33,537 nt of DNA from Thermoplasmatota archaeon (GTDB lineage Archaea; Thermoplasmatota; Penumbrarchaeia; Penumbrarchaeales; Penumbrarchaeaceae), in NCBI GenBank assembly GCA_016928095.1, contig JAFGLL010000095.1, positions 1 to 33,537 of the forward strand, given 5' to 3'. The position numbers were made by a program, and so were the translations under genes. Positions 3,101 to 33,390 of the stretch are shown piece after piece. Within the stretch, counting starts at the first letter, position 1. The number at the start of each line of letters is the position of its first letter. The notes beneath the pieces were generated by a model, which worked only from the letters and a program-made list of their open reading frames with translations, did not search any database and had not been told where the DNA came from.

Positions 3101-4480
3101 GATGTTGAAATCGTGATTGCTAGCTGCATAGATCGATGGCCCGCTCTTGGGGACCAGTTCGACCCTGACACGTGCAGTGTAGCAATCGACCTCCGGGACG
3201 TCCCAGGTATACCATCTGCACGGAGCCGTCGCCCCTGTGATCGATGTCCAGGTCGACCCGGAATCGATCGAATAATAGAGCTTGAACTGCTGTATATCGT
3301 CATTGGAGCCGGTGGTTGACCATGCAATACTGTAAGTATTGTTCGATAACAACACCTCTCCACTATCAACTGGAGGGTTCGGTGCGAGCAGTGTGACCGT
3401 AAGTGTGTTCGGGTCCGAGATGATACGGTTCGGGGACGAGCTCTGGTCATGGTCGAGATAGTACCACTCACCCCACTCGGCTGTCACCTTCACTATCACA
3501 TTCTGGGAATCGACGCTATTGGGTACTATCCATGCTTCCTCACTATCATCATAGGACCATCCGATGATGGTCCATGATGAACCTCCATTTGTCGAGTATT
3601 CCAGAACTATGTCCATTATCACCTGAGACGGGTCGAGCGAGGTCTTCCATTTGATGGTGTAGGTGGAGCCACCGACAAGAACGACCCCCCCATCGGGCTG
3701 AATGAGCGTTATGGTCGGGGAGGAGAGCTGTATCTGGTTCGTTATATCGACCCCGAGGACCGAACTCCCCACACTTGCTATGGCCTCGACCCTGATCTCG
3801 CACCAGGCACTCTCGTAATAGGGTGGCATCCACCATATCCAGCCTATTGTCGGATCATAAGTGGAGTAATCTCCCGGGAGAGGCTTCCAGCTCCCGAAAC
3901 CGGAGCCTTCGTCCACCCGCCATGTGAACCTGAGGTATCCGACCCTCCGGTTGGGGTCGAACATGTTGTATCTGAACAGTTTATAGCTTCCGTAGGACAT
4001 GGTGGTGGGGAACTCCGTGAACTCTATCACAAGGTTAGGTGTGATAGAGAAATTTCCGTCGGATATATCCTCGCCATATATTGTCCAGGGTTTTGCGGTA
4101 GAACTCCTCCAGATGACCTGGACCCTGCAGGTGGTCTCATTCAGGTTGGGAGGAACGAACCATGAGTAGCTCCCGAATCCATGGGATGGGGTATTGGATA
4201 TGGTATCAATGCCATCCCAGCTCGTGCCCCCGTCGATGGAGAGGTAGACCGATATGTATCCGCCTGCCCTGTTGATGGACCACTGGACCCTCTGGGTGGA
4301 ACCTGATACGATATTCTCCCCCCCGTTGGGGCTAACAATGGTTATCTCATCCTCCGCCCCCTCTGCGGCCTTCAACGTGAACATTGTCAGGACCATCATC
4401 GTGACGAGGGCATATACCAGAAAAATTGACACTTTTCCATTCTCTGGACGGGGCACTTTCGTTAAAAGAACCTTTTTCAT
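194..4480 (-). CDS. Large secreted, C-terminally membrane-anchored multidomain protein (Ig-like, PKD, TIG/IPT, putative papain-like peptidase domain, two FN3 domains)
   Basis: ORF 194..4516. Start at internal Met (MKKVLLTKVPRPENGKVSIFLVYALVTMMVL, signal peptide) preferred, because a TATA-like element lies at about 4517-4523. PKD-like 'AGYDRTVGEEETVYLDGSGSYDAEGDPLTFSWTK'; TIG-like 'PPVITNVWPDTGWVGTPLTIEGSDL'; FN3-like 'PSPPLDLVAVADGPQVSLSWGAPVSDGG'; acidic spacer plus TM 'WWLVIVIILGVALLLLVGYIV' at the C-terminus. Confidence 0.85.
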   Translation of the reverse strand: MKKVLLTKVPRPENGKVSIFLVYALVTMMVLTMFTLKAAEGAEDEITIVSPNGGENIVSGSTQRVQWSINRAGGYISVYLSIDGGTSWDGIDTISNTPSHGFGSYSWFVPPNLNETTCRVQVIWRSSTAKPWTIYGEDISDGNFSITPNLVIEFTEFPTTMSYGSYKLFRYNMFDPNRRVGYLRFTWRVDEGSGFGSWKPLPGDYSTYDPTIGWIWWMPPYYESAWCEIRVEAIASVGSSVLGVDITNQIQLSSPTITLIQPDGGVVLVGGSTYTIKWKTSLDPSQVIMDIVLEYSTNGGSSWTIIGWSYDDSEEAWIVPNSVDSQNVIVKVTAEWGEWYYLDHDQSSSPNRIISDPNTLTVTLLAPNPPVDSGEVLLSNNTYSIAWSTTGSNDDIQQFKLYYSIDSGSTWTSITGATAPCRWYTWDVPEVDCYTARVRVELVPKSGPSIYAASNHDFNIFYTIYYNYPPIVFAGYDRTVGEEETVYLDGSGSYDAEGDPLTFSWTKIAPGGIDVTLTGADTAMATFSVSLTTYPVTFVLRLTVTDGLEHTDPLFFNTDEVSITVEPRPPVITNVWPDTGWVGTPLTIEGSDLRGAEILMGGMSVGRVLSEPLPPLNPDPDHSYTFIVHDGVPHGKHKITLRTTAGDIASANEVEIFPEPVWQFENGLGFHNPTRYELSYPWNPWGEGRYKDAFGNQAYLCLWVCLGIPYWTPWDGWDCWGYLIEEPFCPDPLAAIYYGAVFWWMAQYGECFGMSTTALRFYHDELSVSDYTPAYSTYPRELDNAGELREHVDYQQGAQMSSEILHAYLGSLISGLVPSSDFTGLGLWMNSMKHSIDTGDLGIATLICDYGAHAVVPYAYEEVDPTHIRFYVYDSNREEFSFPDQAIDKCKSGGDEIDNPPYIEVHKSGLYWDWSFEDADGNMWNSPVGVAFVPWSVVRGPRTMPLSIDGIIHLLAGSATVAVEDDNGSRVGYNESGSLEWGIDGAAPLPMFSGLGWKAQSWFLPTGNYTATVTGTEDGVYNWSCINNGTNAFSIERTEVSNNTVDTMSVDYPDGNPYRGSMEYGTSDEEKVYTLAQVNRFGVRERVYRIINATLTDTGTHVIGTNEDYSGIRFTNNGDEPVTFDVEFQGNVVSEEVWNGTSPPQNGTLPSATRSGITVGPGETVVIYPTNWLDLDNAFVVVEGETVPSPPLDLVAVADGPQVSLSWGAPVSDGGWPVIGYVVNRGEDQENLTFLADVDGISFTDDSVERGRTYYYSVQARNALGISDHSAVVSVSIPALTPPGAPQNITLELTPDGVLISWDPPLSDGGSPITGYRIIRSNGSEVPAEIATVTDAMTYLDTTVENGTTYRYTVLALNSIGESPVSEEMTVDVPEIPEPPDDDDIVVDDDDEKGFPWWLVIVIILGVALLLLVGYIVASSSRKEEGEE

Positions 4481-4532
4481 GTTTTCATCCCCCTCATAAT
4501 TGTTAGGGAGCGACAACTATATGAAAGTTATC

Positions 4533-10402: not shown

Positions 10403-13400
10403 CTATTTATCAATATTGTTCAACTTCCGTTTTATCTCCCGGTAGTCTCCGTTCGGGATCCTCCCTTCCTTATAGGCTACTTCCAGCCGTTCCAGAAGCG
10501 TTTCGCTGGAAGGTACCTCCTTCTCCGAGTTCATAATCTCATCGAAGAGGTCCGACAGATTATCGATCACATCATCCGGATGGCCTACGATACCATCTCC
10601 CTCTGCGTAATGTGCTTCAAGTTTTCCCCCGTTCACCTGTTCATGTGTTGTGGCAAGGCCCGGATCCGGAGCAAGGCGATGCATCGATGGTGTACCCGGA
10701 CCCGGTACCTTGCCGGTTATGGGGGTAGGACCCTGTTCCAAAAGGAGGACCTGTTTCCAGGCATCACTCCCTCGTCTGGAATCATCCCTCCTCTGGTTCC
10801 TCCTCCTGAGGACGAAGAAAGAGACGACAAAGGCTGCCACGACCAGGAGGAGAGCCGCGCCCAGGAGATAGGGTGCAATAGAATGTCCGGAGGAGGGTGG
10901 ATCGGTATGGGGTACGAGGTCGTCAACCGGAAGTACCATGATCTGCAAGGATGTCTCGATGTATTCACCCGATGGGTCCGTTACCCTGAGGACCAGGGTA
11001 TAGATGCCGGCCGGCAGATTAAGGTCTATGATCTCTCCGGTTCCAACGATACCCCTGCCCTCCACTCTCCATTCGTATGTCAGCTCGTCATCGATATCGA
11101 TATCCAATGCGGATGCGGAAACCCTCTGGGTCCCGCCCTCCCGGAACTCCTCCGTACCCGTTTCTATAACGGGGTCCCTGGGTGCGTCGTTGACGTTCTT
11201 GACCTCGACCGAGATGGTGGCTGTTGAAGAGAGTTCCCCGTCACTTGCGATGATGGTGAAGAACACAGTTCCGGTCCAGTCCGGGGACGGCACGAAGGTC
11301 ATGGTGCCCGTATCCGAGATGGTACATGAAACGTGATCATGGCCGCTGATGGAATATTGTAGTTCGTCCCCGTCGATATCGGAGAATATACTGTTTACAT
11401 TCAGCGAGGCGTCCGATCCGTCCTCGTCCATCATGACCATCCATGTTCCCTTAAGGGCTGAAGGAGCATTGTTTACCCGTATCACCTCGAGATCGAACCC
11501 GCGGCCGTCGATCCCTCCCATCCCGTCAGATACGGTGACGTTGACCTTGTAAATGCCCGCATCTGATTCTCCCGGGGTCCCGCTCAGAACTCCCGTCAAG
11601 GGATCGATGGAAAGGAAACCGCTGTCCGTCCCCATGCTCCATACGAGGGTGTCCATTGTGGGGTCGATATCTTCGGCTTCGTAGTCAACGAGGTAGAGTT
11701 CTCCCTCGTTCACGGACAGCACGTCCTCTGTTATTATCACCGGAGCATCATTGGTGTTCCTGACCTCAAGGATGAATTCCGTGCTGTCGAGGGACCATTC
11801 GTCCATCACGGAGATCTTCACGCTGTGATGGCCCACATCGTCGTTCGTCGGGGTTCCCGAGAGGATCCCGGATGACGGGTCCATTTCAAGGAAGCCTGCA
11901 CTCGTTTCCATTTCCCAGTGAAGTTCATCCGTGTCATCGGCCTCGTAATCGACGCGGTAGAGCTGGTCCTCGAAGCAGATCGGCACATCCGCGGTCGTTA
12001 TCTTCGGTGCAAGGTTGTTGTTGTTGACCTTCAGGGTGAAGTTGGTGAAGTCCATGTTGTCCCCGTCGGTGACACTCAGGTTCACCCAGTAGGACGATGT
12101 CGAGACATTGGGTACACCATAGAGCAACCATGAGCCCGTGAAGGTGAGCCATGAAGCATTCGTGTTCAGGGTCCATTTCAGCTTGGAAGCTTCGGTGTCC
12201 CAGTCGAATACATTGTATCTGACCGAATAATTCTGGTTCGTATAGGCCGTGGTGATGTCACTGGTAGTAATCTCCGGCGGGTTCGGGAAGACCAGTCTGC
12301 CGGCGAAGGGCTTGTAGTCCCTGTCACCCCCCTCCCCGTCGATCTGATAGCTCTGGTCAGCGAAATGATCGTTATTGACATCATAGTTCGTGTGGTCCGA
12401 CCAGTAATTACCACCACCGCTTGAGTTCCAATCGTTCGTTCCGTAATTATCGTATGCTTGACTGTCTACCCCGCCGTTATCGATGAAGTTGTTGAAGGCT
12501 ATCTCGTTGTATCTGATGGTGTATCCCGTTGACCCGAAATAGACAGCATATTCATCGTTGTCAATGAATTCGTTGTATCTGATGATATTTGATCTCGTGA
12601 TCCCCATTGCCTGGATGCCGTAGTAAGCATTTTTCTTCATAATATTGTTGGAGATCAGGTTCTCGCAGGCGTCAAAAAGTAGTACTCCGCCCCAGGTATT
12701 ATTGATGAGGGTGTTGCAGATGATCGTATTTTCATCACCGTCAACCTGGATCGCATACTCTTCCGTGTCGTTGACCCTGCATCCCTTGATGGTATTCCTG
12801 TCGCCTACCACCTGGATGTTGGCCGCTCTGTCGATATCGCACCCGGCAACGGTGCAGTCCTCTACCAGATTGTCATTGCTTGCATCCAGATAAATGGGCC
12901 CGCCGTATACCGTTGTGTTTCTCACTGTGTTCCTGTTTGACCAACTAAAACTGATCTGGGTGTTGAAAAGGACGCAATCAAGGACCTCATTATCATTTGC
13001 CCTGTAGAACCCGATCCCGTGATGCGCATCCTTGAAACTGCAGCGCTGGATCGTTATATAACTGCCACCCGAGATGTTGAAAGGATCGGTCTTTATCGCC
13101 CAGGACTGCAGGTCCCTGCCGGCTTCGAAGCCGATATCCCTGATGGTGATGCCACCTTTTTTCAGCCACCATATCACCTCGCTCGTGGTGTGGTTTATTA
13201 TTGTGATCGCTGAGCCGTTCCCCTGGAAAGTCAGGGATTTGGATATGGAAAGGGTCTCATGGTATATTCCCGCATATATCCTGATGGTATCCCCGTCACT
13301 CGCAGCGGCAACGGCCGCGTTGATGGTTTTGTAGGTCTGGTCATTGCCGACGTAAAGGGTCGATGCCCTTGTTTCCTCATCCGCATACGAACCCTCTATG

Positions 13401-13489
13401 GCAATCGGCATGATAGATACCATGAGTGCCATGGTCATAAGGGCGCAGAATGCTATCATTTCGCTTCTCTTCATATTCGTTTCCTCCAT
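10403..13489 (-). CDS. Secreted NosD-like right-handed beta-helix protein with cadherin-like/Ig repeats, C-terminal TM and cytosolic tail
   Basis: Signal peptide; 'YVGNDQTYKTINAAVAAASDGDTIRIYAGIYHETLSISKSLTFQGNG' beta-helix start; repeated 'N.I..N...G' turns; Ig/cadherin-like repeats 'SGFLSIDPLTGVLSGTPGESDAGIYKVNVTVSDG'; PKD-like unit; TM 'APYLLGAALLLVVAAFVVSFFVLRRR'; tail ending 'LLERLEVAYKEGRIPNGDYREIKRKLNNIDK'. Confidence 0.9.
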   Translation of the reverse strand: MEETNMKRSEMIAFCALMTMALMVSIMPIAIEGSYADEETRASTLYVGNDQTYKTINAAVAAASDGDTIRIYAGIYHETLSISKSLTFQGNGSAITIINHTTSEVIWWLKKGGITIRDIGFEAGRDLQSWAIKTDPFNISGGSYITIQRCSFKDAHHGIGFYRANDNEVLDCVLFNTQISFSWSNRNTVRNTTVYGGPIYLDASNDNLVEDCTVAGCDIDRAANIQVVGDRNTIKGCRVNDTEEYAIQVDGDENTIICNTLINNTWGGVLLFDACENLISNNIMKKNAYYGIQAMGITRSNIIRYNEFIDNDEYAVYFGSTGYTIRYNEIAFNNFIDNGGVDSQAYDNYGTNDWNSSGGGNYWSDHTNYDVNNDHFADQSYQIDGEGGDRDYKPFAGRLVFPNPPEITTSDITTAYTNQNYSVRYNVFDWDTEASKLKWTLNTNASWLTFTGSWLLYGVPNVSTSSYWVNLSVTDGDNMDFTNFTLKVNNNNLAPKITTADVPICFEDQLYRVDYEADDTDELHWEMETSAGFLEMDPSSGILSGTPTNDDVGHHSVKISVMDEWSLDSTEFILEVRNTNDAPVIITEDVLSVNEGELYLVDYEAEDIDPTMDTLVWSMGTDSGFLSIDPLTGVLSGTPGESDAGIYKVNVTVSDGMGGIDGRGFDLEVIRVNNAPSALKGTWMVMMDEDGSDASLNVNSIFSDIDGDELQYSISGHDHVSCTISDTGTMTFVPSPDWTGTVFFTIIASDGELSSTATISVEVKNVNDAPRDPVIETGTEEFREGGTQRVSASALDIDIDDELTYEWRVEGRGIVGTGEIIDLNLPAGIYTLVLRVTDPSGEYIETSLQIMVLPVDDLVPHTDPPSSGHSIAPYLLGAALLLVVAAFVVSFFVLRRRNQRRDDSRRGSDAWKQVLLLEQGPTPITGKVPGPGTPSMHRLAPDPGLATTHEQVNGGKLEAHYAEGDGIVGHPDDVIDNLSDLFDEIMNSEKEVPSSETLLERLEVAYKEGRIPNGDYREIKRKLNNIDK

Positions 13490-14131: not shown

Positions 14132-17100
14132 TCAGTGATCCGACGGTCCATCTAGCTCATCTTCATGGATCTTTTCTATGGTCTTTATCTTTCTGATATA
14201 AATGTAAGTGAGGATCCCCCCGACGGCCGCCATGAGGAGGAATATAGCCAGTGAGACGATGACACTGGTGAAGATCCCTCCCTTTTCTTCACCATCTTCG
14301 TCTATGATGGGTTCCTCGTCAACATCGATAGGTTCGTCGTCGGGTGGCTCCTCCCCGGGAAGGCCGGGTACCTTGAGGCTGGTCTCGGGGCTTCTTTCCG
14401 ATTCACCGTACCTGTTGAATGCAATGATGCAGTAGAAATAGACCTTTCCGGGTTCAAGGGTGCTGTCCATGCAGGAATTCACCTCCGAGCCTCCCTCGAA
14501 GATTGTCAAGGTAGTATTCTCATCCCTACGATAGACCCTGAAACCTTCGATTGGATGGTTCTTCTCGTTCACTGGATGGGTCCATGAGACCGTCGCGTTG
14601 AGGTTGTCAAAGAAAATGAATACCTCTTTCACCCCAGGAGGGGGGACCCCTACCGTTGTAAAATTGAAGAGATGATCCGATCCTATCAGGTTTCCCGCTC
14701 TGTCCTTCAAAGCAGAGTTCAGGACCACCTCGTAGAGCTCGAAAGGTTCCAGGGGTTCATTCGGTTCGAAGCTTGCTATGGTCGATAGGTTACAGAAGTC
14801 CACTGTCCCTCTTACTCGAATTCCTTTGTCGTCATAGACGGCGATGGGATCTCCTTCGAGCGGGTCGAGGAGGACCCCTTCATTGAAATTGACCACGATC
14901 CATGAATCCAGAGGAACGTTCTTCTGTTCGGGATACGGTTCCATCTCCATCAGGCCGGGAGGTGTCATGTCCAGAAAGATCGATCCGTCAATAGCCTGCT
15001 CCATTTCATTACCAGCCTCATCCTTTATCCTGACCTCGACGATGTTCAAACCCTCCTGGCCTTCCAGTTCATACTGGACCGAAGGATCGAGATCAATCCA
15101 ATCCCCCCAGTTCGAACCATCCGAGCGGATGCAGAGCTTCGAGCATCCGGAGATCGCATCGTATGCTTCGATCCCAAGCCGGATCTCTCTTGATGCGGTG
15201 TATTCGTCTCCGTCGTTGATGACCAGTTCCATGCATTGCGGGGACTCCCGGTCTATTCGGAACTCCAGGGACCTCGGGACCTCCGAATTTCCGGCAGGGT
15301 CCACGGACCAGTACAGAAGCTCATGATCTCCACTGTCCAAAAATAGTAGGGGAGAGGAATAGGACCTCTCTGGCCCCCCATTCTGGATGAAACGGGTGGT
15401 CACTTCATCATCTTCGATCGTGAAAAGAGTGATCATAACACCGCCCGTGTACCAATCGTTCTCTCCTTCCTCCCCTACAACCTCCAGATGGGTCATTGGT
15501 GCTACGGTGTCCAGGATTATCGAGGAAGAAGCCACTTTGCTGAAATGTCCGGCACCGTCCATGACCTGGATGTAAACGTATTTCTTTCCATCTCCTTTTC
15601 CGATATCGAAGGAGAACGAAGGTGAGAATTCCCCCCATCCGGACCATGAGACCCCATCTCTGCTGGTCCTGACCTTCTCAGGACCGGATAGATCGTCAAC
15701 GACATTGATGTTCAATATGATGGAAGAGATGCTGGTGTAAGTATCTCCATCATTTATAGTGACAGTTACAGGCTCAGGAGGGAGGGTGTCGTAGCCAACT
15801 GTCGCTGAGGCATCTGTCCATCCGGGTCCGAACCCGTTCCTCATCCTGAAATAGACCTTTCCAAAACCGAATCCAATGCTAAGGTCCCATTCCATCGTCG
15901 GTGCGAAAGGCACCCAATCCGTCCATTCACCACCTTCGTTCCTGAGGCTCATCTCTCCCGGATCGTTCGAATAGAGATGGAGGGTCACCCGGGTATCGTT
16001 CACGAACTTCCTACCGTCGTTCATAACGATCGAAAGGTCGCCAGGAATGTGATCGGAAGTGACGAATGGATCCCCGAAGAGGGCTTCGTCGTCGATCCAC
16101 ATGTCCAAACCGATGTTGGGATCAGTACGTATTCTAAGGGATCGATTATAGGAGTAGTCCTTGTATGCCAGATAGCCGTCACCAATGGCAGACCTGTTCT
16201 TGAGAGCGTGGAAGGTCTCTCTGAATGTCGTTCCGTAGGAACGGGTGCAGCCGGCCGAGACAAGGCCGTATTTTGTATTGAATGCGTAGTTGATGGCAAG
16301 GTTCTGGTCAATATCGGAGGACCATACATACCCGGTATCCCCAAAATCGGCAGCGTGACATCCCCATATCAGGGTAATGGTGGAGCCGTTCATCCCTCTG
16401 ATGTCTGCGTAATAGACCCCGGTGTAAGGGTATGTGGTATCCGAAGGGGGTTGGAACTGATGGGCCCTACCCCCCGCATGGGACCAGATCGACAGGAGTT
16501 CATATCCGGGTTCCAGATAATCCAGGTATTCCCAGGCATTGGTGGTGTTCTTGCCTCCGCCGACAACAAGGGATCCACCGTATAGCGGATAGAGTAGCTG
16601 GTCCCTTATCGGTTCGAGCATCTTGCTTTGATACCCGTAGGGGTAATCCATGAAGAGGAGTCCCTTTTCGGGTTGACCGAGCTTTCCGGTATGGTAGAGA
16701 TGGGTCTTTTTAAGATAATCGTTGTAGTTCACTATCTTGATCTTTGGGGAATCCCAGCCAAGGAACAATGAACCGTTGTTCAGGTATCCACCATCCCATT
16801 TGTAGTACTCGAGCAGGATGTCGTGTGAACCTTTGGTGAGATACTTTGTTGCTTCCCAATTGATCGCTGTGTTAGTCGACCCGGTCCTCTGGTCGATGAG
16901 AAGCGTGTTATCGATGTAAAGTCTCGCTCCTCCGGCGACCTCGAGTGAGAATTCAACGTGCTCCGACTCGTTCGCGATGATCTCCCCGGTCCATTTGATG
17001 GAGAACTTATCTGCATCCACCCCGGGAGGAAGAAAGGACTGGTTGAGGTTCAGGTCCATAAGGGGGTCCATTCTCTGCGAGACGAGGTCTGACATGGATG

Positions 17101-18109
17101 TGTCGTTGTAGTACCAGCCGTTGAGTCCACCGGTAGAACCTGTCCCCCATGGATCGAGGTTCTCCGAAGGGATCGTCATCAAGGGCATGAACCAGTTGCT
17201 TACCCATATCTCGGGTCCGTCATTGTCCCCCCAGTAACGCTTGTCGTACCTTCCGTTGCTATCGGTATCTGCGAAGGTCGCGTCGAGGTCCTCGTAGAAT
17301 ATCGGAATGGGACATGGTTCAGTGCTGGTATCATGGATCAACTCCCAGGTGGCGTAGGGCATATCCCCTATCAGGATAGCCCCGGTAATATGCTCATCCT
17401 CCCATTCGTCTATGAGGAGGTTCCTGAGGGATTCAGGGTTGCTCCATATTCCCTTGTGCAGAAAGAAGGTCGCGCTGAACTGGTCCTTGATATCTTTCTG
17501 GTATCTGTCAAGGTTATCCTTGATGCCATCGTACAGCTCGCTGTTCACTATCAGAGCTATCCTGGATCCGATCTCGGCTGGGAACACCTGATCCAGTGTA
17601 AAAATGCCCCCACTAAAGCTTTTACAGGTCGTTTTGACATGGAGTTCCAGTCTTGTAAGTCCAAGCCCTCTGAGATCGTTGAACTTCTGTTTTGAGATAT
17701 AAATCAGATAATTGTAGGTATTACTCCCTGCGGCGGGGACATCAAATCCGTTCAAGTTCCGGTCAGGGAGATCGAGAACCAGCTCTCCAAAGGGATCGAA
17801 AAGGTCCGCCTCGATCCGTGTGATGGTGGCACTCGTTCCGCAGTATTCCTCGAACCGAAGATCGATGGAATGGGAACCTTTGTTCGATATGACGAATTTC
17901 TCGGGGTCCATGAAGACTTCGACATGAGCGGAGTATGCTTCTGATCTTGAAGGGAGACCCTCTTCCTGAAGATACGGATCCACATCGTCCTCATGAGGAT
18001 CTCCCTCCGACGAGAGCGGTATGAGAACCACTGACGGCATTATAAAGAAGAAAAGTAATAGCAGGGACCACGCTTGTGCCACTGATCGCTTTTGGCGGTC
18101 AGGTTCCAT
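14132..18109 (-). CDS. Secreted putative clan CD (C25 gingipain-like) cysteine peptidase with PA14-like insertion, Ig-like/FN3 domains and C-terminal TM
   Basis: 'RIALIVNSELYDGIKDNLDRYQKDIKDQF...ITGAILIGDMPYATWE' (N-terminal C25-like), 'LLSIWSHAGGRAHQF' (His), 'STITLIWGCHAADFG' (Cys), 'ALFGDPFV'. PA14-like 'DKFSIKWTGEIIANESEHVEFSLEVAGGARLYIDNTLLIDQ...KGSHDILLEYYKWDGG' lies between. FN3-like 'NATVSWTHPVNEKNHPIEGFRVYRRDE'. TM 'FTSVIVSLAIFLLMAAVGGILTYIYI'. Confidence 0.85.
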   Translation of the reverse strand: MEPDRQKRSVAQAWSLLLLFFFIMPSVVLIPLSSEGDPHEDDVDPYLQEEGLPSRSEAYSAHVEVFMDPEKFVISNKGSHSIDLRFEEYCGTSATITRIEADLFDPFGELVLDLPDRNLNGFDVPAAGSNTYNYLIYISKQKFNDLRGLGLTRLELHVKTTCKSFSGGIFTLDQVFPAEIGSRIALIVNSELYDGIKDNLDRYQKDIKDQFSATFFLHKGIWSNPESLRNLLIDEWEDEHITGAILIGDMPYATWELIHDTSTEPCPIPIFYEDLDATFADTDSNGRYDKRYWGDNDGPEIWVSNWFMPLMTIPSENLDPWGTGSTGGLNGWYYNDTSMSDLVSQRMDPLMDLNLNQSFLPPGVDADKFSIKWTGEIIANESEHVEFSLEVAGGARLYIDNTLLIDQRTGSTNTAINWEATKYLTKGSHDILLEYYKWDGGYLNNGSLFLGWDSPKIKIVNYNDYLKKTHLYHTGKLGQPEKGLLFMDYPYGYQSKMLEPIRDQLLYPLYGGSLVVGGGKNTTNAWEYLDYLEPGYELLSIWSHAGGRAHQFQPPSDTTYPYTGVYYADIRGMNGSTITLIWGCHAADFGDTGYVWSSDIDQNLAINYAFNTKYGLVSAGCTRSYGTTFRETFHALKNRSAIGDGYLAYKDYSYNRSLRIRTDPNIGLDMWIDDEALFGDPFVTSDHIPGDLSIVMNDGRKFVNDTRVTLHLYSNDPGEMSLRNEGGEWTDWVPFAPTMEWDLSIGFGFGKVYFRMRNGFGPGWTDASATVGYDTLPPEPVTVTINDGDTYTSISSIILNINVVDDLSGPEKVRTSRDGVSWSGWGEFSPSFSFDIGKGDGKKYVYIQVMDGAGHFSKVASSSIILDTVAPMTHLEVVGEEGENDWYTGGVMITLFTIEDDEVTTRFIQNGGPERSYSSPLLFLDSGDHELLYWSVDPAGNSEVPRSLEFRIDRESPQCMELVINDGDEYTASREIRLGIEAYDAISGCSKLCIRSDGSNWGDWIDLDPSVQYELEGQEGLNIVEVRIKDEAGNEMEQAIDGSIFLDMTPPGLMEMEPYPEQKNVPLDSWIVVNFNEGVLLDPLEGDPIAVYDDKGIRVRGTVDFCNLSTIASFEPNEPLEPFELYEVVLNSALKDRAGNLIGSDHLFNFTTVGVPPPGVKEVFIFFDNLNATVSWTHPVNEKNHPIEGFRVYRRDENTTLTIFEGGSEVNSCMDSTLEPGKVYFYCIIAFNRYGESERSPETSLKVPGLPGEEPPDDEPIDVDEEPIIDEDGEEKGGIFTSVIVSLAIFLLMAAVGGILTYIYIRKIKTIEKIHEDELDGPSDH

Positions 18110-18198: not shown

Positions 18199-19470
18199 TC
18201 AATTGTTAGGATTTTCCACCTTCCCCATGAACAGGATCTGTCCAGTCGCCTTGTGCTCTATGAAGAATATGAACGGATGGTCCGCCCTGAATTCCACGGG
18301 CTCCGGTTCGCTTCCACCACCTTTTTTTGACATAACCACTGCAGTAGCGGCTGCGGCCTCTGTACCTTCCTCATTCACCTCCACGAACGATTGGTGGACG
18401 ACATCGCTGATGTATAGGTCTGACTCTCCACTTTCCTTGATCCCGCTGAAATCGGCACCGGACCCAAAAGCAAGATGCATTCCAAGATCCGACAGATCTG
18501 GTACTATCTCATATCTTAGTTCGAATTTGAACTTTGGAAGGTAGACATCGATCCATTCACCATACATATCTGACTTGAGATCATCGAAATAATCCCAGTC
18601 CAGATCTGTTTCCAAAGCTGAAATATCATCGGTCTTTGGTAGAAGTATGAACATGGATAGTTCCTCATCTTTGTAAGGAAGCTGAAGCATCTGAACATCA
18701 TCATTTTCCGCATAGTTCAGATCGAAATCCTTATCGCACATATTCATCAGATCGGCATATGTACTGGTACCATCTGAAAGATAAAATTTATGCTCCTGAG
18801 TCGCTTCTTCGTCAAACTGCCATTTCCAATCGGCTTTGAAGTAGATCGCATTTGTTAATATCAAATATGTCAATGGATCTATCATGTCAGGAGTGATGAG
18901 GTTCTTGATCCTGTTATTGGTCTCAGCCTCCACCCACTCGTTGATCGTATCTGCAGATCCGGAGGCATCCCCTGCAAAATTCAACTCTTGACCACCTGCA
19001 AGATAATCGTTTTCAATGGTGTTCTGATAATCATCATTCAGGTCTTCTCCTTGTCTTAGCCAATAAGCGTTGGCCGTACTCAACTGGTAATTGGTATTAC
19101 CAGGATTCAACTGTGATTGTAACGATCGGACCATAGCTCTCCTTTCCAGATCGTTTTCCGGGAGTTCTATGACATCCAGCATCTCAGATGCTGTCTCTCC
19201 CCTTGCACCCTCGTAAGCCATTCCCAATGCGATCGTTATTGAATAGGGAGAGAAAAAGATGTTATCGTCTCCGTTCAAAAGCTGTCTGTACATATCAAAA
19301 GAGAACTCATTTGATGAATTCACGAGATCGTTCATGGGAACGTATATGGATTCGTATCCGGGGGGGTCCTTCTCAATATCTCCATTATCGAGGCATCCCG
19401 CTATAAAAGCGACCGATATCAACAGTGCTACCCCAATGGCTCCCTGTATCTTCATTTTCTTACTCTCCAT
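18199..19470 (-). CDS. Serpin-family protease inhibitor, lipoprotein (copy 1)
   Basis: Lipobox 'VAFIAGC'; serpin core 'NIFFSPYSITIALGMAYEGARGETASEM'; hinge 'EVNEEGTEAAAATAVV'; C-terminal 'FRADHPFIFFIEHKATGQILFMGKVENP'. Confidence 0.96.
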   Translation of the reverse strand: MESKKMKIQGAIGVALLISVAFIAGCLDNGDIEKDPPGYESIYVPMNDLVNSSNEFSFDMYRQLLNGDDNIFFSPYSITIALGMAYEGARGETASEMLDVIELPENDLERRAMVRSLQSQLNPGNTNYQLSTANAYWLRQGEDLNDDYQNTIENDYLAGGQELNFAGDASGSADTINEWVEAETNNRIKNLITPDMIDPLTYLILTNAIYFKADWKWQFDEEATQEHKFYLSDGTSTYADLMNMCDKDFDLNYAENDDVQMLQLPYKDEELSMFILLPKTDDISALETDLDWDYFDDLKSDMYGEWIDVYLPKFKFELRYEIVPDLSDLGMHLAFGSGADFSGIKESGESDLYISDVVHQSFVEVNEEGTEAAAATAVVMSKKGGGSEPEPVEFRADHPFIFFIEHKATGQILFMGKVENPNN

Positions 19471-19533: not shown

Positions 19534-20799
19534 TCAAACTGTCGGATCCTCGACTTTCCCCATGAACAGGATCTGTCCCGTTTCTTTGTGCTCTATGAAG
19601 AATATGAACGGATGGTCCGCCCTGAACTCGACCGGTCGAGGTTCGCTTCCCCCGATAGGAGAAGCGCTATTTTCCATTATCACGGCCGTTGCAGCGGCAG
19701 CTTCCGTTCCTTCCTCGTTCACCTCAACGAAGGACTGATGTATGACACGGCTTATGAAGAGCGGGTCCCCGCTCTCCTTGATCCCGCTGAAATCGGCCTC
19801 GTTGGGATCGAACGCCTTCTCCATCCCAAGAGCGATGAGAGGGTCGTTCAGGGTGTACTTCTGCTCGAACTTGAATTTGGGAAGGTAGACATCCACCCAC
19901 TCCCCGTACATGTCCGATTTCAGATCGTTGAGGTAATCACTGGTGAGTTCCGACTCCAGGAAGGAGATATCATTCTCCTTCGGAAGCAGGATGTACATCG
20001 AGAGTTCCTCGTCCTTGTAGGGAAGCTGGAGAAGCTGGACATCGTCGTTCTCGGCGTAGTTCAGGTCAATATCCTCGTCGCACATGTTCATCGTGTCGAC
20101 CATTTCGGAACTGCCGTCGGTGAAATAGAACTTCCTCTCCAGCGTGGCGTCCTCGTCGAACTGCCACCTCCAGTTTGCCTTGAAGTAGATGGCGTTGGTG
20201 AGGATGAGGTATGTGTCCGCCGAGATCATCGATGGAGAGATGAGGTCCTTGATCCTTCCGTTGGTCTCACCTTCGACCCATTGGTTAATCGTGTCTGCGG
20301 AACCCGAAGCATCGTTCACGAAATCGAGGTCCTGTCCTCCTGCGAGATAATCGTTCTCGATGGTATCCTGATATTCATCGTTCAGGTCCTCTCCGACCCT
20401 CAGCCAGTAAGCGTTGGCAGTGCTGAGTTCGTAGTTCATCCCTTCGGGGTTCAATTGTGACTGGAGGGACCTTACCATCTCCCTCCTCGCCTCGTTATCC
20501 CCGGGGAGATCTATCACGCTCTGGATCTCTATCGCTGTCTCCCCTCTGGCACCCTCGTACGCCATGCCTAAGGCTATCACTATGGAATACGGTGAGAAGA
20601 AGACATTATCATCTCCGTTCACGAGTCCTCGATACATATCGAAGGAGAATTCGTTGGAGATGTTCACGAGTTCGTTCATTCCGGTGTATCTGGTTTCGTA
20701 CCCCGGGGGGTCCCTGTCCCCCTCATTCGGTGTCAAACACCCGGCAAGAAAGGTGATCGATACGAGCATTACGACAGAGAGAAAGGTCGCGATCTTCAT
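19534..20799 (-). CDS. Serpin-family protease inhibitor, lipoprotein (copy 2)
   Basis: ORF runs to 20919, but the signal peptide begins at internal Met (MKIATFLSVVMLVSITFLAGC; ATG at 20797-20799). TATA-like GATATAAATT at about 20836-20845. Closely similar to the adjacent serpin; hinge 'EVNEEGTEAAAATAVI'. Confidence 0.95.
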   Translation of the reverse strand: MKIATFLSVVMLVSITFLAGCLTPNEGDRDPPGYETRYTGMNELVNISNEFSFDMYRGLVNGDDNVFFSPYSIVIALGMAYEGARGETAIEIQSVIDLPGDNEARREMVRSLQSQLNPEGMNYELSTANAYWLRVGEDLNDEYQDTIENDYLAGGQDLDFVNDASGSADTINQWVEGETNGRIKDLISPSMISADTYLILTNAIYFKANWRWQFDEDATLERKFYFTDGSSEMVDTMNMCDEDIDLNYAENDDVQLLQLPYKDEELSMYILLPKENDISFLESELTSDYLNDLKSDMYGEWVDVYLPKFKFEQKYTLNDPLIALGMEKAFDPNEADFSGIKESGDPLFISRVIHQSFVEVNEEGTEAAAATAVIMENSASPIGGSEPRPVEFRADHPFIFFIEHKETGQILFMGKVEDPTV

Positions 20800-20931
20800 C
20801 TTGCTCACTCCCGAGGTATCCATGGCCCTGTTGTGATATAAATTGAATGGAACAGTAACCGTACATTCATTCCCGGAGGCCGGTGCTATGACGGGGAGCT
20901 TTGATAGACCTTTGTTCATGGAGTGGTGTTA

Positions 20932-26704: not shown

Positions 26705-28402
26705 TCATACATTCTGCTGTTGCACCTTCGCCCATGTGTCTTTGAGGGTTATGGTCCTGTTCACGATAAGATCGCCTTCTTTCGTATCGGGGTCGATCGT
26801 AAAATACCCCAGCCTCTCGAACTGGAAACGGTCCCCCGTGTTCAATCCGCCGACCGCGGGCTCCACCCTGCAACCTTTCTTGACCACCAGCGACCCGGGG
26901 TTCAGGTATTCGGTGAACTCTCCTTCCTCTCCCATGGGGTCCTCCACCGTGAAGAGCTTGTCGTAGAGCCTGATCTCTGCATCCAGAGCATGCTTGGCAG
27001 ATACCCAGTGGATGGTGCTCCTAACCTTTCTCCCGTCAGGGGCGTCCCCTCCTCTCGAATCCGGGTCCACCCTGCATATTAGCTCCTTCACCTCCCCTCC
27101 CTCTTTCATCACATCGGTACAGGTCACCAGGTAAGCGTTCCTGAACCTGACCTCCCTGCCAGGGGCCAGCCTGAAGAACTTCTTGGGTGGGTCCTCCATG
27201 AAGTCCTCCCTCTCGATGTACAATTCCTTTGCGAAGGGTACCTTCCTCGTCCCGGCAGAGGGATCCTCCGGATTGTTGATGACATCCATCCAATCCTCGT
27301 GGTCATCGGGCAGGTTCTCGATCACCACCTTCAACGGATCGAGAACACCCATGTACCTGGGGCAGCTCCTGTTCATCTCCTCGCGGACGGAGTGCTCCAG
27401 AAGCTCCAGGGCTATGGTTGAGTTGATCTTGGCCACCCCTATCCTCCCGCAGAAGTTCCTGATCGCTGACGGCGGGTACCCCCTCCTCCTCATTCCGGAG
27501 ATGGTGGGCATCCTCGGATCGTCCCATCCATTGACATACCCGCCCTTTACCAGCTCGAGAAGCTTCCTCTTGGACATCACCGTGAAGGTCAGGTTCAATC
27601 TTGCGAACTCGATCTGCTGTGGGTGGTACACACCAAGCTCATCCAGGAACCAGTCATACAGGGGTCTGTGGTTCTCGAACTCCAGCGTACAGATGGAATG
27701 GGTGATGCCCTCTATGGAATCCTCCAATCCGTGGGCCCAGTCGTACATGGGATAGATACACCATTCATCTCCTGTGTTGTGGTGCCTTGCGTGGAGTATC
27801 CTGTACATAACGGGATCCCTCATGTTCATATTCGGGTGCCCCATGTCGATCTTTGCCCTGAGGACCTTATCACCATCATTGAACTCCCCCGCCCTCATCC
27901 TTGCGAAGAGGTCCAGGTTCTCCTCCACTGTCCTGTTGCGATAGGGGCTCTCCCTTCCGGGGGTCGTCAGTGTCCCCCGATATTCGGAGATGGTAGCCGC
28001 ATCCAGGTCGTCCACGTAAGCTTCCCCCTTCTTTATAAGGTCCACCGCCCGGTCGTGCATCATCCCGAAATAATCGCTGCTGAAGAAGAGCCTGTCCTCC
28101 CAGTCGAAACCCAGCCACCTGACGTCCTCGATGATGGAATTGACGTATTCTTCCTCTTCCTTGGTGGGATTCGTGTCGTCGAAACGGAGGTTGCATTTCC
28201 CCCTGTACTCCGATGCTATCCCGAAGTTCAGGCATATGGATTTTGCGTGGCCGATGTGGAGGTATCCGTTGGGTTCCGGGGGAAACCTTGTATGGACCCT
28301 TCCCTGGAACCTGCCGGTCCGGTCATGCTCATCTATGATCTCCCTGATGAAATCCCTGCCGGTCTTTTCTTCGTCCCCCATATCGGGCACCTTCCGATCA
28401 TG
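26705..28402 (-). CDS. glnS: Glutaminyl-tRNA synthetase (bacterial-type GlnRS)
   Basis: '[56 protein letters not shown]', '[43 protein letters not shown]', 'TVMSKRKL', '[18 protein letters not shown]', anticodon-binding '[26 protein letters not shown]'. Matches the E. coli GlnRS layout closely. Likely start at the Met of [14 protein letters not shown], not 28435. Confidence 0.96.
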
Positions 28403-28507
28403 CATGAACAAAATAGTACTAAATATACCTGTCAATGGAGTGCGGTTCCTCCTCCGCTTTCACGTTAGCAGCCGGACACCCGGAGTGGCGGTGGATGGAA
28501 TTCTTGA

Positions 28508-28901: not shown

Positions 28902-28995
28902 AATCATTGGTAATCATTAATATATGCTACAATAATGTCCATGAAGGACCGGAACGGGGTACCGATCCAGGTTTTTTCCCGATAGAGGTGTCGTT

Positions 28996-31900
28996 ATGCA
29001 GACCCATTCTCCGAAAAAGAGAGAGCCTGTAGGAGAAAATGAGACTGGTCATTTCGATCGGTTTGCCACATATCTATTGACAGGTCTTTTTTTACTTTCA
29101 GGATTAGTGTTGAACAATGCAACTGAAGAGGTTTCCGGTGCGGACCCCACTATCGATGGTACGATCGGTCCCACGGAGTACGAGGACTCGATAAACATAG
29201 ACGAAGGGAAGTTCGAACTGTTCTGGACGACGACGGGGTCCACGATCTTCATCGGAATGAGAGCAGAAGCGACAGGATGGTTATGCCTGGGTCTGGACCC
29301 TGTCAACATCATGACCAACTCGGATATGATCTTCGGAGGAGTTGACGCCGGGACACCGTACATCTATGACGCATGGTGTACGAATGACGTCGGTAACCAT
29401 CCGGAGGATACAACGTTCTCCGGTGGGACCTTCGATATCGATGAATACGACGCTACAGAGGTCTCGGGTACGACGACGGTTGAGTTCAAGCGGGCCATGT
29501 CCACGGGCGATCCCTACGACAAGAAGTTCGTCAACGGCACCAAGATGAAGGTAATGTGGGCGACACACAAGGATAGCGATGACTGGACCGACGAACACGA
29601 CGATGCCGAATATACGACGATCACTCTGGACGGGACACCCCCGCCACCTCCACCGGTCTCGGATGAGTTCGACGGTGTCATCACCGATGGAGAATACTCG
29701 AACAGCACCACGTTCGATGGAGGGAATTTCCAGCTTTTCTGGAAGGTCAATGAGACCAACATCACCATCGGTATGAAGGTACTCGCGACGGGATGGGTTT
29801 CCCTCGGGATCTCGCCAACGTCCATGATGCTGGGCGCTGACTTCCTGATGGGAGGATATGAAGGGTCCAGGGCCTACGCCGAAGACCATTACGCTACGAC
29901 GACCACGTCGCATGTCCTGGACACTGACCTCGCCAGCGGGACCAATGACATCGATGCGTTCAATGCCACCGAATCCGGGGGTTGGACCCATTTCGAGATG
30001 AGGCGCGCGCTCGTCACGGGGGATCCAAACGACAAGGACATCATGATCGGAACGATGAACATCATATGGGGATACAGCACATCCGATGATCTGGCAGCGA
30101 AGCATACGAAGGTGGGCTATGATACCTGGAGAGTGGATGCCGCTCCTCCTCCACCGCCCCCCCCCCCACCATCCAATGAACTGGATGGGGTGATAAATGA
30201 AACCGAGTACGGGAACATGACCAAATTCGACATCGACAGGTTCGAACTACATTGGAGGATCAACGGGTCCGTCGTTTACGTCGGGATGAGGGCTGAGACG
30301 ACAGGCTACATCTCCATCGGGATCGATCCGACGGAGATGATGAAGGATGCCGATATGATATTCGGCGGCTTCTCGACCGGATCATCATACGCCGAGGACC
30401 ATTATGCCACAGGCACCACCGGCCCCCATCTGAGGGACGAGGACCTGGGTGGAACCTTCGATCTTTTAGCATACAACGCGACGGAAGATTCAGGGTGGAC
30501 GACCTTCGAGTTCAAGAGGAACCTGACCACTCCCGACACCTATGACAGGACCATCCCTTCGGATGGAGAGGTCACTTTGATCTGGGCGGTGGGACCCACG
30601 GATGACGTGACCGCGACCCATTCGAGGAGAGGCACCGCAATATGGAACCTATCGATGTCCGAGCCTCCTCCACCCCCGCCACCTCCGCCTCCGCACGAAT
30701 CCGATCTCGATGGGATCATCACTGCAGGGGAATACACCAATTCCACCAAATTCGATTCCGACCGTTTCGAGCTTCACTGGAACGTTTCGGGCGATATGAT
30801 ATTCGTCGCCATGAAGGCGGAAGCCACTGGATATATTTCGATCGGGATCGACCCGACAAGTCAGATGGCCCAGGCGGATATGATACTTGGCTGGGTCGAT
30901 GGGGACAGAATAGCGCATGTTCAGGACATGTTCTCAACGGGAGCGCTGGGCCCTCACCCTCTCGACACTGCCCAGGGGGGCACCGATGATATACTGGATT
31001 ACAATGGGACCGAATACGGAGGCTGGACCACAATCGAGTTCAAGAGGAACCTCTCCACAGAGGATACCAAGGACAGGAATATCTCGACAACCGGGCTCAT
31101 GACGTTGATCTGGGCATTGTCGGATTCGGACGATCCATCGGCAGCTCACACAAGGAGAGGTACGACCACCTGGATGATACGTTCCAGTGGTGGCGAGGAG
31201 CCGGAACCCGAGCCGACCGGAGAGATGGACGGTATGATCGCCGCTAATGAGTATGATGATTCCCAGACCTTCGGCGGAGGTATGTTCGAGGTATACTGGA
31301 AGATATTCAACAACTCCATCGACCTCGGTCTCAGGGCCCAGACCACCGGATGGTTGTCGATCGGGTTCGAACCAAGCCGTTACATGAAGGATGCGGACAT
31401 GCTCTTCGGGTGGGTGGACGGGAGCGGTATCCCGCATGTTCTCGACACCTTCTCGACAGGCGATTACGGCCCCCACCCGCCGGATACCCAGCTTGGCGGA
31501 ACATCCGATGTCTCATCCTACAATGGGACAGAGTCGGGTGGTTGGACCACCATAGAACTGAAGAGGGCTCTCTCCACCGGAGACACCTACGACAAGGATA
31601 TCCCAACTGAAGGGTCGATCAATATCATCTGGGGGACCGGGTCTACCGACAACTACGAGGACACTCACACCGATAGGGGTTCCGGGACCCTTCTCCTCTA
31701 CATGGATGAACCGGTTCCGAACCAGGATCTCGATGGTATCGTCACGGCCGGGGAATACGAGGATTCTGCCACCTTCGATTTCGAGAACTTCCGCGTTCAC
31801 TGGACGATCATAGGGGACAGCATAGACATGGCGATAGTGGCTGCAACCACGGGATGGATCTCCATCGGGTTCGATCCGGAGGACCAGATGAACAACTCCG

Positions 31901-33390
31901 ATGTGATCCTCGGATGGGTGGAGGACGACGGGAAGGTGAACGTTCTTGATGCATTCTCCACGGGACCCCTTGGTCCACATCCTCCGGACACCCATCTCGG
32001 TGGCACGAAGGACCTGATCGCTTACAACGGAACGGAGATCGATGGCCACACGACCATCGAATTCACGAGGAAACTGGCAACCGGGGATGCATACGACAAG
32101 GACATCCCGACCGCGGGGACGATGAAGATAATGTGGGCATTCGGAGAGACGGACGATTTCAGTGATTCTCATTCCAAAAGAGGTATAGGTACCCTTACAA
32201 TGGGCCCGGAGATACCCGATGATGACGATGACGACATCTCCGGTGACCTGGACGGGATCATAACCGACGGCGAGTATGATTTCAACGGGACCTTCGGGGA
32301 CGGTATCGTGGAGCTTCACTGGAAGGTCCACGAGGACAAGATCTACTTTGCTATGGTAGGGAAGACTACTGGCTGGGTGTCCATCGGCATTGATCATTCC
32401 ACCGCCATGGCGGATTCCGACATGATATTCGGCTGGGTTGAGGATGACGGCACGGTCATGGTCGTGGACGCATATTCCACCGGTCCGATAGGGCCGCATC
32501 CTGCAGATTCGGACCAGGGAGGAACGAACGACATCCTGGATTTCGGAGGGAAGGAGATCAATGGAGTCTCGACCATCGAATTCGTGAGGAAGCTCGTCAC
32601 CGGGGACCGCTATGATAATCCAATACCGACGAACGGCACTCCTTTGAAGATGATCTGGGCCACCAGCGCCTCGGACGATTTCAATGCAAAGCACGACAAG
32701 GTCGGATACGGGACCATAAATATCGGATCCGGTGAGACGACCAGCGAGGACGTTGTGAAGCTCTGGCCCATCCATGCGATGTTCATGACATTGGGCGTGG
32801 GAGGAATGGTCCTCGCGACCATTGTTCTCTACAGAAGGAAGTGGAAATCGTTCTTCAAGTTCCACATGTGGGTGATGACCGCCGCAGTGATATTCGCTGT
32901 CGCGGGAACCGTGCTTGGGGTCATAATGGTCGAGAACTCTACAGGGGTCCACCTGAGAGTACCCCATTCATGGGTAGGGCCGCTGACACTTTTAGTGTCG
33001 TTGTTTGCTCTTGGGGTCGGCTTCTATTTCAAGTATACGAAGAACATGAAGCACAAGAAACCCTCCCGCAACATCCACAAATACGTGGGCTGGACAGGTG
33101 CGGTCCTGTTCGTCCTCACAACTATATCGGGATTCCTTCAAGCGCTCGTCCAGGCCAAAGAGACCGCCCCGGTCTGGTTCATCATCGTCGAAGCCTTAAT
33201 CCTTACCCTCCTGGTCGGAACCGGGATATACGTAGTTCTCATGGGCAGGAAGAAGCCCCCGGTGAAACCATCGACCCCTTCACCTCCCCCCCCACCTCCG
33301 GTGGAAGAGAAAAAGGAACCTGATGAGGGGCCCTCACTTATCGAAAATGAACCGCCTTTAACGGGACCACCGGAAATGGATGAGGAATAA
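28996..33390 (+). CDS. Secreted/membrane protein with seven tandem DOMON domains and C-terminal cytochrome b561-like transmembrane domain
   Basis: Signal/TM 'FATYLLTGLFLLSGLVL'. Seven repeats of 'DG.I...EY..S..F....F.L.W...(~30)TGW.SIG..P...M..ADM..G...(~90)IWA....DD....H..RG'. C-terminal four-His TM region 'IHAMFM', 'KFHMWVM', 'VPHSWVG', 'NIHKYVGWTG'. SD-like GAGGTG before ATG. Confidence 0.92.
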   Translation: MQTHSPKKREPVGENETGHFDRFATYLLTGLFLLSGLVLNNATEEVSGADPTIDGTIGPTEYEDSINIDEGKFELFWTTTGSTIFIGMRAEATGWLCLGLDPVNIMTNSDMIFGGVDAGTPYIYDAWCTNDVGNHPEDTTFSGGTFDIDEYDATEVSGTTTVEFKRAMSTGDPYDKKFVNGTKMKVMWATHKDSDDWTDEHDDAEYTTITLDGTPPPPPPVSDEFDGVITDGEYSNSTTFDGGNFQLFWKVNETNITIGMKVLATGWVSLGISPTSMMLGADFLMGGYEGSRAYAEDHYATTTTSHVLDTDLASGTNDIDAFNATESGGWTHFEMRRALVTGDPNDKDIMIGTMNIIWGYSTSDDLAAKHTKVGYDTWRVDAAPPPPPPPPPSNELDGVINETEYGNMTKFDIDRFELHWRINGSVVYVGMRAETTGYISIGIDPTEMMKDADMIFGGFSTGSSYAEDHYATGTTGPHLRDEDLGGTFDLLAYNATEDSGWTTFEFKRNLTTPDTYDRTIPSDGEVTLIWAVGPTDDVTATHSRRGTAIWNLSMSEPPPPPPPPPPHESDLDGIITAGEYTNSTKFDSDRFELHWNVSGDMIFVAMKAEATGYISIGIDPTSQMAQADMILGWVDGDRIAHVQDMFSTGALGPHPLDTAQGGTDDILDYNGTEYGGWTTIEFKRNLSTEDTKDRNISTTGLMTLIWALSDSDDPSAAHTRRGTTTWMIRSSGGEEPEPEPTGEMDGMIAANEYDDSQTFGGGMFEVYWKIFNNSIDLGLRAQTTGWLSIGFEPSRYMKDADMLFGWVDGSGIPHVLDTFSTGDYGPHPPDTQLGGTSDVSSYNGTESGGWTTIELKRALSTGDTYDKDIPTEGSINIIWGTGSTDNYEDTHTDRGSGTLLLYMDEPVPNQDLDGIVTAGEYEDSATFDFENFRVHWTIIGDSIDMAIVAATTGWISIGFDPEDQMNNSDVILGWVEDDGKVNVLDAFSTGPLGPHPPDTHLGGTKDLIAYNGTEIDGHTTIEFTRKLATGDAYDKDIPTAGTMKIMWAFGETDDFSDSHSKRGIGTLTMGPEIPDDDDDDISGDLDGIITDGEYDFNGTFGDGIVELHWKVHEDKIYFAMVGKTTGWVSIGIDHSTAMADSDMIFGWVEDDGTVMVVDAYSTGPIGPHPADSDQGGTNDILDFGGKEINGVSTIEFVRKLVTGDRYDNPIPTNGTPLKMIWATSASDDFNAKHDKVGYGTINIGSGETTSEDVVKLWPIHAMFMTLGVGGMVLATIVLYRRKWKSFFKFHMWVMTAAVIFAVAGTVLGVIMVENSTGVHLRVPHSWVGPLTLLVSLFALGVGFYFKYTKNMKHKKPSRNIHKYVGWTGAVLFVLTTISGFLQALVQAKETAPVWFIIVEALILTLLVGTGIYVVLMGRKKPPVKPSTPSPPPPPPVEEKKEPDEGPSLIENEPPLTGPPEMDEE
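29148..32735 (+). repeat. Seven in-frame DOMON-domain repeats (approx. starts 29148, 29661, 30175, 30697, 31219, 31723, 32240)
   Basis: Protein-level repeat of about 165-180 aa. Linkers are Pro-rich after repeats 1-3, Glu/Pro-rich after repeats 4 and 5, and Asp-rich after repeat 6. Confidence 0.9.

Follow-up and report, generated by a model that had tools for sequence, protein, structure and literature searches.

A seven-DOMON cytochrome b561 protein of a Thermoplasmatota archaeon, a candidate b-heme electron conduit

The gene and its putative heme ligands

The genome of a Thermoplasmatota archaeon (GenBank assembly GCA_016928095.1; 2.8 Mb, ~96% complete) was found to carry, on a 33.5-kb contig that was analysed over its entire length and is referred to here as the window (G000:C19), an open reading frame (ORF) for a 1464 aa protein with seven DOMON domains followed by a cytochrome b561 domain. 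The ORF (28996-33390, + strand) is intact from ATG to stop, and its product is the only protein in the host genome matching DOMON and also the only one matching b561. This domain arrangement, proposed in an initial annotation made by eye, was borne out by Pfam, in which DOMON matched seven separate stretches (573.4 bits in total, E 4e-175, cut-off 32.7) and Cytochrom_B561 matched residues 1259-1384 (33.2 bits, cut-off 23). Two heme-binding families gave secondary scores, EB_dh with 49.6 bits, over its cut-off, and CDH-cyt with 26.8 bits, just below its cut-off. The features of the gene, with the evidence for each, are:

28985-28990, +: ribosome-binding-like motif GAGGTG, 5 bases ahead of the ATG (read from the sequence)
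28996-33390, +: seven-DOMON cytochrome b561 protein, 1464 aa (ORF; Pfam DOMON x7 and Cytochrom_B561)
29059-29142, +: N-terminal hydrophobic signal segment, residues 22-49, a putative export signal (sequence inspection)
29146-29661, +: DOMON R1 with poly-Pro linker, M106/H201 (Pfam, alignment)
29662-30174, +: DOMON R2 with 9-Pro linker, M278/H370 (Pfam, alignment)
30175-30699, +: DOMON R3 with 10-Pro linker, M449/H542 (Pfam, alignment)
30700-31218, +: DOMON R4 with GGEEPEPEPT linker, M624/H718 (Pfam, alignment)
31219-31722, +: DOMON R5, M797/H891 (Pfam, alignment, model)
31723-32241, +: DOMON R6 with acidic PDDDDDDIS linker, M965/H1059 (Pfam, alignment, model)
32242-32736, +: DOMON R7, adjoining the membrane part, M1138/H1233 (Pfam, alignment, model)
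32770-33147, +: cytochrome b561 core of four helices, with H1260 and H1324 as putative outer and H1290 and H1361 as putative inner heme ligands (Pfam; profile match to 4O6Y/5ZLE; model; Foldseek)
33181-33237, +: fifth transmembrane (TM) helix (hydropathy; model helix 1393-1416)
33241-33387, +: charged, Pro-rich tail, predicted to lie on the cytoplasmic side (sequence; positive-inside rule)

The seven repeats share 36-53% pairwise identity, and one Met and one His column are invariant in all seven; the repeat motifs quoted in the initial annotation, which had named both columns, are all present in the ORF. As 28 of the 161 gap-free columns are invariant, the probability that both pre-named columns would be so by chance is p ~0.03. 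When repeats of relatives were included, Met was retained in 46/47 and His in 46/47, and an Asp close to the Met ligand (D60 in alignment A1) was invariant across the 47; a further His, in a GPHP motif, and additional Asp residues are near-invariant. The only Met exception is a Lys in R6 of a related genome, G005 (L039:4664-5146, +). The heme of ethylbenzene dehydrogenase is ligated by Met/Lys, and by comparison with that Lys ligand heme could still bind to this repeat.

Three fungal heme-b DOMON domains obtained from a PDB search (1D7C, 6JT6 and 4QI3) were aligned with the repeats as references, and all four MAFFT protocols placed the repeat Met on Met65 and the repeat His on His163 of cellobiose dehydrogenase (CDH), in agreement with what had been aligned by eye. 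A profile HMMER search did not reach CDH, and the hhalign match to it was weak (E 0.04), with an aligned part taking in the Met and not the His; the equivalence of the His to that of CDH therefore rests on the multiple alignments and the fold. When the full-length protein was searched against the PDB as a single sequence, low-complexity matches alone came back, and the search was discarded. The CDH domain binds heme via Met and His, while sugar-binding DOMONs and DBH have neither residue (PMC10691727). As judged from these alignments, each of the seven DOMONs holds a Met/His pair of the CDH type.

Structures were modelled with AlphaFold2 from shallow inputs (10 sequences for R7 with b561, and 6 for R5-R6-R7). 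The model of R7 with the b561 part (pLDDT 76.5, pTM 0.63) shows a beta sandwich leading into five helices, and Foldseek related it to the DBH DOMON, to the b561 structures 4O6Y/4O7G (TM-score 0.63-0.65 of the target) and to the heme subunit of ethylbenzene dehydrogenase. In the R5-R6-R7 model (pLDDT 80.5, pTM 0.46) the single domains are confident and the linker stretches fall below 50. Its Foldseek matches, with a probability of 1.00, were the cytochrome b domains 6JT6, 1PL3/1D7B (CDH) and 4QI3, together with 2IVF_C; deviations from 6JT6, 1PL3/1D7B and 2IVF_C were 3.5-4.7 A. Taken with the alignments, these models make it likely that most of the DOMONs bind heme b.

Three of the linkers are runs of 6-10 Pro residues (R1/R2, R2/R3 and R3/R4), while GGEEPEPEPT joins R4 to R5 and PDDDDDD joins R6 to R7. 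Together with the low pTM, which by itself is weak evidence given such shallow alignments, they point to DOMONs tethered as beads on a string in preference to a packed or rigid stack of hemes, and a rigid continuous wire appears improbable.

The membrane part contains His residues at 1260, 1290, 1324 and 1361, and a conserved extra one, H1319. A profile built from ten archaeal b561 domains matched only two PDB entries, 4O6Y (Arabidopsis b561, E 1e-4) and 5ZLE (human Dcytb, E 1.5e-4), and all four His coincided with the heme ligands of these proteins, so that the earlier claim of a diheme b561 placement was upheld. Among relatives the first three His are invariant and the fourth is kept nearly always. 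Lys and Arg are frequent in the loops that follow TM1 and TM3, as expected for a cytoplasmic face, and these positive charges, together with the hydrophobic N-terminal segment, suggest that the DOMONs are extracellular. With the N-terminus outside, H1260/H1324 lie on the outer and H1290/H1361 on the inner side. The plant protein HYP1 has H211-H278 as its apical and H245-H314 as its cytoplasmic pair (PMC10784544), and the archaeal protein resembles it in this inner/outer pairing and in the fifth helix. Two b-hemes are thus very probably held by the b561 module, as predicted from profile match and model.

A c-type cytochrome was rejected, since the number of CXXCH motifs in the chain is zero; the 1464 aa include only two Cys. 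An assembly artefact was also rejected, as the repeats are too divergent for this and G005 contains a matching seven-repeat ORF with an identical repeat order.

Relatives and history of the array

DOMON is present in 11/390 sampled Thermoplasmatota genomes. The initial annotation had raised the question of whether repeat number varies among homologues: seven is held in the host's family, and outside it a single DOMON is mostly fused to b561, in some genomes behind Ig/Big_7-type domains (G010 and G027; also G028 and G048). Within the host's family, the seven DOMONs and b561 of G005 (contig C89, 20248 bases) lie in one complete ORF. In G003 the contig edge cuts off the 5' end of the ORF, which retains six DOMONs and b561. 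In G007 a contig ends early in a seventh DOMON, after six complete ones, and the last DOMON and b561 lie on a separate contig. A count of ten DOMONs in G005 was rejected, and three of them were set aside because they lie on a contig 99.5% identical to a G007 contig. The two contigs, G005:C144 (L040) and G007:C47 (L042), have 7.7 kb in common at this identity in different genera, which is probably due to mis-binning, and DOMON counts for G005 leave out C144.

In a tree of 48 repeats, in which some forks have modest support, the repeats of four genomes from three genera group by position (R1-R7 of the window, d1-d7 of G005, d1-d6 of G007 and d1-d6 of G003, the last taken as R2-R7), and the seven-repeat order therefore predates these genera. 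Pieces from G043, which belongs to another family, cluster with R1, R2, the R2/R3 region, R6 and R7; judging from these sequences, the order is possibly older than the split of the two families, or may have been transferred between them. The repeats have diverged but their number has stayed at seven, which indicates that the whole array is under selection.

G004 encodes, in addition to a single-DOMON b561, a five-DOMON protein (G004:C69, L037:8205-11852, -) whose N-terminal region is adhesion-like and which has one TM anchor and no b561. This is a multi-DOMON surface protein without a membrane electron path of its own, and Met and His are also kept in its repeats.

Electron transfer, heme supply and alternative functions

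By its architecture, as read from sequence and models, the protein is an archaeal transmembrane redox protein of the CYBDOM type. CYBDOMs (plant HYP1/CRR, animal SDR2/FRRS1 and insect CG8399) likewise have the DOMON N-terminal to b561, a Met/His pair and two His pairs; their DOMON is extracellular and a three-heme electron path has been proposed for them (PMC10784544, PMC10691727). HYP1, with one DOMON and a five-helix b561, transports electrons across the plasma membrane and reduces ferric and cupric substrates; it has two b561 hemes and, by modelling, a DOMON heme whose Fe is ~21 A from that of the outer b561 heme (PMC10784544). However, CYBDOMs usually have one DOMON (in insects, two were found in 19/888; PMC10691727) whereas the archaeal protein has seven in conserved order with poly-Pro linkers, and ascorbate is the electron donor in the eukaryotic members. 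The expectation that such a fusion would be unusual in an archaeon thus held as regards its rarity; the protein is not a new kind of conduit but a multi-DOMON version of a known one. As far as could be checked, the archaeal host, the seven DOMONs and their fixed number are new relative to known CYBDOMs: no paper combining DOMON, cytochrome b561 and archaea was found, nor a description of a conserved seven-DOMON protein, bacteria and eukaryotes not having been searched for such proteins.

Other systems are related in part. The cytochrome domains of CDH (1D7B) and pyranose dehydrogenase (6JT6) share the fold and the Met/His heme-b ligand positions, but occur singly in secreted proteins, joined to a dehydrogenase where the archaeal protein has its b561, and are only weakly similar in sequence. 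The ethylbenzene dehydrogenase gamma subunit (2IVF_C) has a DOMON-like heme-b fold, in line with the EB_dh score, but is a soluble enzyme subunit. Cytochromes b561 such as 4O6Y and 5ZLE are alike in fold and in the four heme His, and stand alone in the membrane with no DOMON attached. Multiheme c-type conduits and nanowires of the MtrCAB and OmcS type may have a comparable function, carrying electrons across the cell envelope, whereas the b-hemes predicted here are non-covalent.

Sequence, models and analogy to these systems make it most likely that the protein conducts electrons across the membrane and holds up to nine b-hemes, and a CYBDOM-type carrier of electrons to the outside is the best overall explanation, with a probability of about 0.6; electron exchange with the outside would, somewhat probably, be its main job. 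A cytoplasmic or membrane donor would hand electrons to the b561 module, where they would cross the membrane via the inner heme (H1290/H1361) and the outer heme (H1260/H1324) to reach the R7 heme. From there they would move on by contacts among the flexibly tethered DOMONs, each with one b-heme, to acceptors outside the cell, for which Fe(III), other metals, humics and a partner protein are the likely candidates. The string would most likely extend reach through the surface layer and store several electrons instead of forming a rigid wire, and its heme would be loaded from outside sources.

Several observations weigh against this conduit. R7 is placed against b561 with moderate confidence (pTM 0.63) and the DOMONs are not confidently placed relative to one another (pTM 0.46). 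Two genomes of the host's genus, both less complete, gave no match to the gene, and no redox partner gene was found as a conserved neighbour in the window and the relatives inspected. The most serious issue for nine hemes is their supply. HemB (PF00490) was found in 0/10 genomes, the host among them, and HemC (PF01379) in 0/13 Thermoplasmatota, while the same searches gave matches in 11/14 control genomes; AhbD had no match over its cut-off, and matches below it were uninformative because radical-SAM paralogues match everywhere. These genes went undetected despite the near-completeness of the host genome and, with no detectable heme pathway, the cell would depend on the uptake of external heme. 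CcmC/F-type cytochrome c assembly proteins (PF01578) occur in 9/11 DOMON-bearing genomes; searches for PF01578 in the host, its two congeners and G036 gave no match. Cytochrome bd was found in 0/14 genomes tested, and the host had no other heme user among those tested. CcmC/F-type proteins were seen in G003-G005, G010, G027, G043 and others, in which HemC, and HemB in those searched for it, went undetected. This group of Thermoplasmatota probably handles imported heme.

The lack of a detectable pathway suits a surface heme-binding array, comparable to multi-NEAT hemophores, in which the seven DOMONs would capture or store heme and b561 would reduce captured heme or iron for uptake. Heme-handling CcmC/F-type proteins are kept in many relatives, and the array, probably extracellular, is strongly acidic (205 D+E vs 67 K+R in 1200 aa). 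This function is nevertheless unlikely, as six-coordinate Met/His is typical of electron-transfer DOMONs and not of hemophores that pass heme on, no heme transporter gene adjoins in the window and the relatives inspected, and the b561 fusion of most relatives points to electron flow. The same Met/His pair bears on an adhesin or spacer, in which redox activity would be limited to b561 with or without the last DOMON and the other six would raise a functional tip clear of the S-layer, or would attach to glycans or surfaces. The poly-Pro linkers, the Ig/Big_7-type spacers at the equivalent N-terminal place in single-DOMON relatives and the G004 five-DOMON protein on its single anchor are all compatible with a spacer, and DOMON folds also bind sugar (PMC10691727); however, sugar-binding DOMONs are without the two ligands (PMC10691727), which are present in all seven repeats and in the G004 protein, and this explanation is held to be improbable too.

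A multi-heme protein that reduces metals locally for iron assimilation, and not for respiration or extracellular electron transfer, would follow the example of HYP1, CG8399 and SDR2, which are ferric reductases (PMC10784544, PMC10691727), and the invariant Asp near the Met recalls the Asp pocket proposed as the iron site of CG8399 (PMC10691727). One DOMON suffices in the eukaryotic ferric reductases, though, which leaves seven conserved repeats unexplained, and no iron-uptake gene adjoins in the window, so that iron assimilation is very unlikely to be the role.

If the nine-heme conduit is retained, its fullest form would be a heme-auxotrophic archaeon, without detectable cytochrome c assembly or cytochrome bd, exporting electrons through a b-type single chain loaded with scavenged heme. 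This combination is doubtful; if true, electrons would reach the outside by a path that needs no c-type cytochromes. Most discussion of extracellular electron transfer centres on c-type multiheme cytochromes, and in uncultured Thermoplasmatota a seven-DOMON b561 would offer an alternative that uses b-hemes and a single gene. CYBDOM proteins, studied as plant and animal iron reductases, are extended to archaea, and the apparent absence of heme biosynthesis genes connects surface redox chemistry with the scavenging of heme in a way that can be tested.

Other genes in the window

Neighbouring genes were rejected as a guide to function, because neighbourhoods differ among the relatives inspected, and a search of a plasmid collection gave no match. 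The contig is rich in surface-type proteins, with large ORFs at 194-4516, 10403-13489 and 14132-18109 (-) whose domains are of fn3/PKD, beta-helix/cadherin-like and PA14/Big_5 types. Two adjacent serpins (18199-19470 and 19534-20919, -) scored ~380 bits each; serpins are protease inhibitors that are uncommon in archaea. The usual archaeal route to Gln-tRNA is the amidotransferase, and this archaeal genome encodes, at 26705-28435 (-), a bacterial/eukaryal-type glutaminyl-tRNA synthetase (TIGR00440, 724.6 bits, cut-off 425.8).

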